This document shows, one piece after another, positions 18,832 to 21,448 of a DNA stretch of 64,000 bases; position 1 is the stretch's first letter; every line of letters starts with the position of its first letter. The notes below the pieces were generated by a model, which was given only the letters and a program-made list of their open reading frames with translations, did not search any database and had not been told where the DNA came from. The position numbers and the translations under genes are program-made. Source of the stretch: Prosthecobacter debontii (lineage in GTDB: Bacteria; Verrucomicrobiota; Verrucomicrobiia; Verrucomicrobiales; Verrucomicrobiaceae); contig CAMAQH010000002.1 in assembly GCA_945860295.1 (NCBI GenBank), positions 1-64,000 of the forward strand, given 5' to 3'.

Positions 18832-20835
18832 CTATTTTTTCCACTGCCAGGCTTCATCAAAGAAACCCGCATCAGGAATGCCACCCGGCGAGCGGGCGGT
18901 CTTTGGCTGATTGAGATCGACCACCGCCCAGTCCGGCAGCTTGGCGACCTGGCGGGCGTTGTTCAGGTAGTCGTATTCGCGATAAGTAAAACTGCTGTTG
19001 ATGACGATGTAGCGCTTTGGGTTCAGCGGATTCGGATAGACGAGGACGGGCGCATGATTCGCAGCATCGTAAGTCTTGCCGTTGGCGATGAGCTTGTCCT
19101 TGGTCCAAATGATCGGCAGCTTGCCGATGATCTTTGCGAGCACCGTATTGCTCTGTGGATCACCCCACAAAACAAGGTTGTTGGCGGCGATGTCGGCATC
19201 GCTGATTGCCTTGTCATCCTTGGCTGGTGCATCACCACGGAACTGACGCCGCCACTCAAACACGGCGCGTTCCATCTCCGCCTTCGACCACGCGCCAACC
19301 TTCTCATTCAGCGCTGCGCCTGTGGGCTTCACAAACAAAAAGCTATCCATGAAAGCATCATCAATCGGGCCGGAAAGGCCGTGCTGCTTCACGAGCTTAC
19401 CGTCTTCATGAGCCGTCAGTGTCTGCTGCCACTTGCCGCCGATGCGGCGCAAATGGACCAGCCATGAGCGATCAGATTTTGGTCGCAGGACTTCGAGCGA
19501 TGTGCCGTCGATCTTCACGGTCGGTTTCTCACGGACACTCAGCGGGCAATGGCCAGGAAGCATGTTGATGGTTAGCGCGGTGGTGTTCTGCGTTTTGATC
19601 GTGACCTCGGCATCGCCGGTGATTTCGGCATGGATGCGGGTGCGCTCCCATTGCTTCTCCAGTTCATCGACCGTGATCCAGTGCATCGTGTTATATCGCA
19701 AGAACCAGGTGGCGAAGTGAACTTCGCGCGGTGTGCGGTCACGTCCGACGGCGGCGATCGCTGCCAGGCGCTTCTCGACTTCGATCAGCGAGTCTGGATG
19801 AATCTTATGCCCGGTTTGTGGGCCTATGATATGCTCCAGGTCGATGTTTTCCATGCGCAGGTACTTCTCCATGATGTCGGCGGCCTGCTTTTGCTTATCG
19901 ATCTCGCCGCTGTAGGCCACGGTCGGTACGTGGAAGAGATTCAGCGCGCTGTCGGTCGCGTTGTACCAATGCCAGAGCGTCTTCTCATACACGGGCACTT
20001 TGGACACATCTTCTGTTTGGAAGACATTTAGAAACTCCGGTGTCTCAGCAAAGCCCGCGCCAGGGTTCGCTGCACACCACTTCTCGGCGTAGTTCACGGC
20101 GAACTGCCACGCGGCGGCACCGCCCATGCTGAAACCACGGACGATCGTGCGATCTTCATCGATGGCGTAAAACTTCTTCGCGTGTTCCAACGCCTCGATC
20201 AGATCGACCTCACCAGCAAATTTGTTCGCGCAGCAGTAGCGGCCATACGGGTGCAAAACGAGCGCGTTTGCCGGCGCGATATTGCCCACCTGCTTGCGAC
20301 GTTGGTCGATAAAGCCCAGCTCGCTGAGCGTCTCGCCACGACCATGACACCAAGCATCGAGACGCGACTGCGCACCGCTATAGCTCTCAGGAATCACCAT
20401 GCCATAAGGCTGCACCGAGGCGTCGATTTTGGACCGATAGCCGCGCACGACGAGTCCCTTCTGCGTGGTCCATGGTGACTGGCCATTTTTGAGCTGTTCC
20501 GCGCGCTGCTTGCCTTCAGCGAGAGCTTCCTGCGCTGACTTGATCTCCGTCAGTTTGTGGACCTCGTTGTGCTTGAGTGCCCAATCCACAGCCTTGAAAT
20601 AGATCTCCACATCTGGCAGCAGATCCGCCAGCTTCGGGTTCTTTGCCTGGGCCTTCACTGCCGCATCAATGGCCGCGCGCAGTTCCGACAAACCCTGCAT
20701 CAGCGCTTTCGCATCAGCCTCAGGCACCGCGACGCCAGGAGGCGGCACGGGCCGCACATTTTCAGCGAGGTTGTCTTTAGGACCGTCGGCGAGAGCTGCC
20801 GTGATGAGGAAGAATGGGAGGAGATGGGATTTCAT
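18832..20835 (-). CDS. large secreted alpha/beta-hydrolase (prolyl oligopeptidase/esterase type)
   Basis: This 667-residue exported protein has a signal peptide (MKSHLLPFFLITAALADG), an N-terminal helical region, and an alpha/beta-hydrolase core. The nucleophile elbow is GFSMGGAAAW, a Gly-x-Ser-x-Gly motif, and the preceding IDEDRTIVR is typical of carbohydrate esterases and peptidases of the S9 clan. A histidine in GPQTGHKIHPDS is a candidate for the catalytic base. The C-terminal 300 residues form a beta-rich region with no assigned function. It may act on plant- or algal-derived polysaccharide esters or peptides. The HslV-like gene lies 4 bases upstream on the same strand. Confidence 0.8.
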   Translation of the reverse strand: MKSHLLPFFLITAALADGPKDNLAENVRPVPPPGVAVPEADAKALMQGLSELRAAIDAAVKAQAKNPKLADLLPDVEIYFKAVDWALKHNEVHKLTEIKSAQEALAEGKQRAEQLKNGQSPWTTQKGLVVRGYRSKIDASVQPYGMVIPESYSGAQSRLDAWCHGRGETLSELGFIDQRRKQVGNIAPANALVLHPYGRYCCANKFAGEVDLIEALEHAKKFYAIDEDRTIVRGFSMGGAAAWQFAVNYAEKWCAANPGAGFAETPEFLNVFQTEDVSKVPVYEKTLWHWYNATDSALNLFHVPTVAYSGEIDKQKQAADIMEKYLRMENIDLEHIIGPQTGHKIHPDSLIEVEKRLAAIAAVGRDRTPREVHFATWFLRYNTMHWITVDELEKQWERTRIHAEITGDAEVTIKTQNTTALTINMLPGHCPLSVREKPTVKIDGTSLEVLRPKSDRSWLVHLRRIGGKWQQTLTAHEDGKLVKQHGLSGPIDDAFMDSFLFVKPTGAALNEKVGAWSKAEMERAVFEWRRQFRGDAPAKDDKAISDADIAANNLVLWGDPQSNTVLAKIIGKLPIIWTKDKLIANGKTYDAANHAPVLVYPNPLNPKRYIVINSSFTYREYDYLNNARQVAKLPDWAVVDLNQPKTARSPGGIPDAGFFDEAWQWKK

Positions 20836-20839
20836 GAGA

Positions 20840-21448
20840 TTAACTTTTGCGCGTCTTCTTGGTTGGCTTGGCTGGTGCAGTTGCTAGATCACACTTGTGG
20901 ATCTCAAAAGGTGCGCCGGTAGCGCTGTCAAACTCGGCGGAAGCACTCAGACCGGCTTTGACGATATCCACGACATCATCACACTGATCATAGACGCTCT
21001 GCATGGCGCCGAGGGCGTAGTCGCGGCCTGAGCCAGCGGCCCAGAATTTATGGAACTGTTGCGCGCTGCGGTAGGAGTAGAGGGCGAAGATGCCGTGAGG
21101 ATTGGCGACGAGGCCGTAGAACTGAGTGGTCTCATACTCTTCTTCTTTCGAGGCCATGGTGGTCATAAAGTACTCGGCCTTCATCCAATGATGCGCGTGG
21201 CGGAAGGTCTCGAAGATCGCGTCTGTGCCTGAGAAATCACGCGGGCGCTCGGGGTTAGCGAAGTAGCTGTTCATCACCACCAAACTCGCCGAGGTGCCGG
21301 TCAGGCCGATGTAGCTATCGGCGATCTTGGTGATCTTGGTTTTATTGACGATGTGATGCGCCTTCTGACGCAGCGAGCCGAGGCAGCTCATGGTATCTGC
21401 GCCGATGCAGGCGACTCCGTTCTTCTGGGCGACAACGATGGTGGACAT
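20840..21448 (-). CDS. HslV/proteasome-like Ntn hydrolase with N-terminal Ser
   Basis: The 202-residue protein reads MSTIVVAQKNGVACIGADT. It aligns with HslV, whose mature form begins TTIV and has GDG at residue 17. After removal of Met1, the residue in the nucleophile position is Ser rather than Thr. The conserved Asp17 and a lysine at 28 are kept, with further lysines at 35 and 37. Later blocks GLTGTSASL and GSGRDYALGAM also match the fold. The C-terminal 30 residues are a Lys/Pro-rich tail not seen in HslV. No HslU ATPase is adjacent. It is likely a self-compartmentalising Ntn hydrolase homologue of unproven activity, co-transcribed with the downstream esterase. Confidence 0.68.
   Translation of the reverse strand: MSTIVVAQKNGVACIGADTMSCLGSLRQKAHHIVNKTKITKIADSYIGLTGTSASLVVMNSYFANPERPRDFSGTDAIFETFRHAHHWMKAEYFMTTMASKEEEYETTQFYGLVANPHGIFALYSYRSAQQFHKFWAAGSGRDYALGAMQSVYDQCDDVVDIVKAGLSASAEFDSATGAPFEIHKCDLATAPAKPTKKTRKS

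Follow-up and report, generated by a model that had tools for sequence, protein, structure and literature searches.

A probable serine-type bacterial proteasome homologue encoded by Prosthecobacter debontii

Results

The locus and its features

The window, a 64,000-nucleotide stretch of the Prosthecobacter debontii genome (GenBank assembly GCA_945860295.1, contig CAMAQH010000002.1, positions 1 to 64,000), carries an open reading frame for a 202-residue protein on the minus strand at 20840-21448; the plus-strand reading of this interval is interrupted by stops. The protein begins MSTIVVAQ, so that Ser immediately follows the start Met. Its opening reads MSTIVVAQKNGVACIGADT, and its other end is a Lys/Pro-rich tail. 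A sequence-only reading of this DNA had described the frame, its MST start, Asp17, a GSGRDYALGAM block and the Lys/Pro tail, and all of these are present in the sequence. The features of the locus, with residues numbered both from the start Met and in the mature protein, are as follows.

20840..21448, minus strand: coding sequence, 202 aa, assigned to the bacterial proteasome homologue (BPH) family; ATG at 21446-21448, stop at 20840-20842; identified from the open reading frame, phmmer matches to 5ovu and 5ovs, a fold Z of 27.8 to 5ovt and occurrence in 33/35 genomes of the genus
21443..21445, minus strand: TCC codon of the presumed nucleophile, Ser2 (mature Ser1), which aligns with the first residue of BPH and HslV chains; Ser in 46/46 verrucomicrobial sequences
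21395..21397, minus strand: codon of Asp18, mature Asp17; invariant in one alignment and at least 90% conserved in another; active-site Asp-17 of the Thiobacillus denitrificans protein, Td-BPH
21335..21337, minus strand: codon of Lys38, mature Lys37, the catalytic lysine; invariant in the alignments; equivalent to Td-BPH Lys-37
21296..21298, minus strand: codon of Gly51, mature Gly50, oxyanion hole; invariant in the alignments; equivalent to Td-BPH Gly-50
21131..21163, minus strand: acidic pore loop, residues 96-106, ending KEEEYE; aligned with the acidic loop of Td-BPH and of the Cupriavidus metallidurans protein, Cm-BPH; pLDDT below 50 at 96-99 and 103-106
21029..21031, minus strand: codon of Ser140, mature Ser139; invariant in the alignments; equivalent to Td-BPH Ser-139
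20843..20884, minus strand: Lys/Arg/Pro-rich C-terminal tail, residues 189-202, probably disordered; low pLDDT; basic in nearly all verrucomicrobial BPH
18832..20835, minus strand: 667 aa alpha/beta hydrolase (Peptidase_S9 match), downstream, beginning 4 bases past the BPH stop

On the same strand, the alpha/beta hydrolase is followed by a redoxin/thioredoxin protein and a TPR protein; a glycerol kinase lies upstream of the BPH gene on the opposite strand. The hydrolase adjoins BPH in 24 of 38 near-relative loci and Redoxin does so in 5, with some contigs ending too early, and the hydrolase–BPH adjacency was not seen outside the near-relative group. The hydrolase was considered as an obligate operon partner and dropped because it is missing beside BPH in other loci.

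The window protein matches BPH rather than HslV

We compared the window protein with proteins of known structure by sequence and by predicted fold. A phmmer search of PDB sequences returned Cm-BPH (E 3.2e-39, residues 3-192 of the window protein) and Td-BPH (E 1.3e-33, residues 3-188), with 39% and 33% identity, respectively, over near full length, and nothing besides these two proteins below E 0.1. The Pfam Proteasome, 20S beta and HslV models gave weak, sub-cut-off matches, those of Pfam Proteasome and HslV lying over the C-terminal part. The Pfam model PF00227 misses the window protein at E 0.001, and thus its zero in the protein's own genome counts against HslV and 20S subunits and not against other divergent homologues.

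The AlphaFold2 model of the window protein (mean pLDDT 85.2, pTM 0.83, 30-row alignment) placed BPH chains at ranks 1-6 in Foldseek, followed by HslV. VIA-align gave Z scores of 27.8, 27.6 and 24.7 to Td- and Cm-BPH, compared to 19.0 for E. coli HslV; the superposition on Td-BPH at Z 27.8 was 1.8 Å over 182 residues. Thus, PDB sequence search, Foldseek and VIA-align all rank BPH best, which identifies the family of the window protein as BPH, and the predicted fold is a proteasome-beta-like Ntn fold nearer to BPH than to HslV. The sequence-only reading had called the protein an HslV-like Ntn hydrolase and proposed structure prediction against HslV; the fold of the proteasome/HslV kind was borne out, whereas the family was not.

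We give next to no credence to the idea that the gene is a genuine HslV whose HslU was lost and whose nucleophile became Ser. The fold is shared with HslV chains at a Z of ~19 and BPH is itself derived from HslV, but the HslV model scored 13.6 bits against a cut-off of 137, BPH chains matched at 1e-33 to 1e-39, and the residues and pore loop of the window protein follow BPH and not HslV. HslV membership was therefore rejected, both on the model score and on the sequence and fold comparisons with BPH. HslV proteins, including the Ser-type CodW of Bacillus subtilis, have fold and ancestry in common with the window protein; they differ in being partnered by HslU, in having a short pore loop and in matching the window protein only weakly in sequence.

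Active-site residues and pore loop

VIA-align placed residue 2 of the model onto residue 1 of the known chains, in agreement with the earlier placement of Ser at mature residue 1. The alignments show the full set of BPH active-site residues (Ser1, Asp17, Lys37, Gly50 and Ser139 in mature numbering), the residues of Td-BPH being named at positions 1, 17, 37, 50 and 139 (PMC5777263). A conserved Lys28 had also been claimed; mature Lys28 (residue 29) is not conserved among the aligned homologues, and the catalytic lysine is instead mature Lys37 (residue 38), which corresponds to Td-BPH Lys-37 and to Lys33 of the proteasome. The pore loop is acidic (KEEEYE), although less so than that of Cm-BPH; it has low confidence in the model, and its centre is disordered in the Td crystal as well.

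Compared to the window protein, Cm-BPH (5ovu) and Td-BPH (5ovs, 5ovt) thus share near full-length homology, fold, active-site residues, the acidic pore loop and the lack of both a propeptide and a partner unfoldase. The window protein differs in having Ser rather than Thr at residue 1, a basic C-terminal tail, 33-39% identity to these proteins and other gene neighbours.

Residue 1 and the C-terminal tail across the family

We surveyed 80 loci from a scan of named genomes, with a few more from class and phylum searches, and compared 83 distinct sequences. For Td- and Cm-BPH, Thr1 was taken from PMC5777263, the printed alignments starting only at residue 2. Ser1 was invariant in the 46 sequences from Verrucomicrobiota or relatives of the window's genome, the result of the first-residue alignment of homologues that had been proposed from the sequence. 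It was likewise present in 9/9 gammaproteobacterial sequences, and Thr1 was present in 27 of 28 betaproteobacterial ones, among which L070 (titled Klebsiella pneumoniae) was counted because it grouped with one of them in the tree. The record titles of L044, L056 and L070 (Akkermansia muciniphila, Klebsiella pneumoniae) clash with the tree position or identity of their BPH.

The exception, L081, is a betaproteobacterial BPH with Ser1 that is sister to Td-BPH (support 100/100), and Thr is thus not universal in Betaproteobacteria. The L081 gene (6001-6564, SCN1) is 72% identical to the Thr-type Td-BPH and lies downstream of a frame resembling argG, matching the gene context published for Td. When residue 1 was left out of the tree building, the Ser/Thr label required three changes. 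The direction and number of Ser/Thr events are tentative, as the tree has several long deep branches and its grouping of Verrucomicrobia with the Td pair was flagged as a possible artefact.

In a Candidatus Parabeggiatoa genome, two BPH genes lie in tandem (L071, 5336-5911 and 6001-6570), both starting MSTLVVVKKNG, and in the second Glu replaces Asp17 (AAETL). These might be a catalytic and an altered subunit forming a mixed ring.

Over the last 12 residues, the median net charge was +6 in Verrucomicrobiota versus 0 in Beta- and Gammaproteobacteria. It is conceivable, though we consider it unlikely, that verrucomicrobial BPH is a functionally separate subfamily in which Ser1 is combined with a conserved basic tail that would anchor the ring on nucleic acid or a partner, the cells themselves lacking HslUV.

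Distribution and selection

The BPH gene was found in 33 of 35 genomes of the genus (Prosthecobacter and relatives, the window genome included), with full-length matches of 75-92% identity; it was not found in G016 and G034, both drafts. None of 21 other genomes searched from the order had it, and it was sparse more widely (11/236 class genomes, 8/337 phylum genomes). On codon comparisons with seven relatives, the gene is under strong purifying selection (dN/dS 0.017-0.073, the exact values being rough because most dS exceed 1 and are saturated). Its presence in nearly every genus genome, together with low dN/dS, is more than chance would give and indicates a real gene.

Unfoldases in the genome and its relatives

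No unfoldase lies among the neighbours of the BPH gene, as had been noted from the sequence, and neither HslV nor HslU was found over cut-off in the window's own genome; as this is a draft, 95.3% complete, the absence of HslUV is not absolute. HslV over cut-off was found in none of 236 genomes drawn from the class. HslU occurred in only one of 56 genomes searched, G009, a member of the genus, where it sits beside HslV on a foreign-looking contig; this contig (L141, G009:C12) carries hslU and hslV with a TonB-type receptor and other alphaproteobacteria-like genes, and is likely contamination of the metagenome bin. Weak HslV matches (E down to 4e-10) at profile positions ~4-80, in open frames of ~200-460 aa, occurred in 48 class genomes (L133-L136 and others), possibly representing another proteasome-like family.

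The genome does encode a ClpX with a zinc-finger start (L140, 1740-3077) and a second ClpX-like protein of 545 aa (L139, 1550-3187, G000:C29), either of which could in principle serve BPH. We regard such a partnership as extremely improbable: similar ClpX-like matches are widespread in BPH-negative genomes of the order and hence are not tied to BPH, pull-downs with Cm-BPH yielded no partner, and residues of the HslU interface are reported to be lost in BPH (PMC5777263). A dedicated unfoldase was therefore set aside as a candidate, HslU not being found and the ClpX-like proteins occurring equally in BPH-negative genomes.

Discussion

Taken together, the comparisons make it very probable that the window gene is a verrucomicrobial BPH of the serine type already described, in a family of bacterial proteasome homologues that arose from HslV, with the ring-peptidase working expected of that family. 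The protein would most likely act as a Ser peptidase that is self-compartmentalised as a tetradecamer and works without an unfoldase. By analogy with the solved relatives, removal of the start Met would expose Ser1 and the subunits would form a double ring, its two heptamers enclosing the active sites. Asp17 and Lys37 would prime Ser1, whose hydroxyl would attack peptide bonds of unfolded or short substrates, these entering without an ATPase through the pore lined by the acidic loops. Mutant proteasomes indicate that Ser can replace Thr in this type of chemistry, at lower activity.

For the Thr-type relatives, the 14-mer ring and Met removal have been demonstrated and epoxomicin binds covalently, but neither Cm-BPH nor Td-BPH, once purified, acted on standard peptides or casein (PMC5777263). 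A plain peptidase role is thus unproven, and activity may call for a cofactor or a particular substrate. This inertness would also suit a Ser-type BPH that has given up peptide hydrolysis for another acyl chemistry, for example acyl transfer or ligation; connectase, of the same superfamily, shows that the fold can serve as a ligase. We judge this very unlikely, since Ser for Thr is the sole sequence sign of alteration in the active site, the relatives of solved structure are ring-forming, and the inert result was obtained with Thr-type BPH.

Fuchs et al. had already reported BPH in Verrucomicrobia and described the family as descended from HslV, without a partner unfoldase, and with Ser at residue 1 in all members outside Betaproteobacteria (PMC5777263). 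Compared with the published description, the window protein has the traits of these Ser-type BPH, shows no substantive difference and belongs with them. Among the titles listed on proteasome-like proteins in Prosthecobacter, none was relevant. The Ser nucleophile, the absent unfoldase and the verrucomicrobial occurrence have therefore been known since 2017 and are not new. The sequence-only reading took Ser as a rare variant or a change of function; Ser and the missing unfoldase are both published traits and not local oddities. The gene was fairly spotted as odd against HslV, yet it is explained by a published family. The additions made here are small: a Ser-type BPH in a betaproteobacterium, placed as the sister of Td-BPH; the basic tail that is typical of the verrucomicrobial members; and the Parabeggiatoa tandem pair.

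Residue 1 is cleanly divided between Ser and Thr, and the one betaproteobacterial Ser exception, L081, forms with the solved Thr-type Td-BPH a natural pair in which to compare both nucleophiles. The genus keeps BPH almost without exception and seems to be without HslUV, and would thus be well suited to a knockout or a substrate trap.
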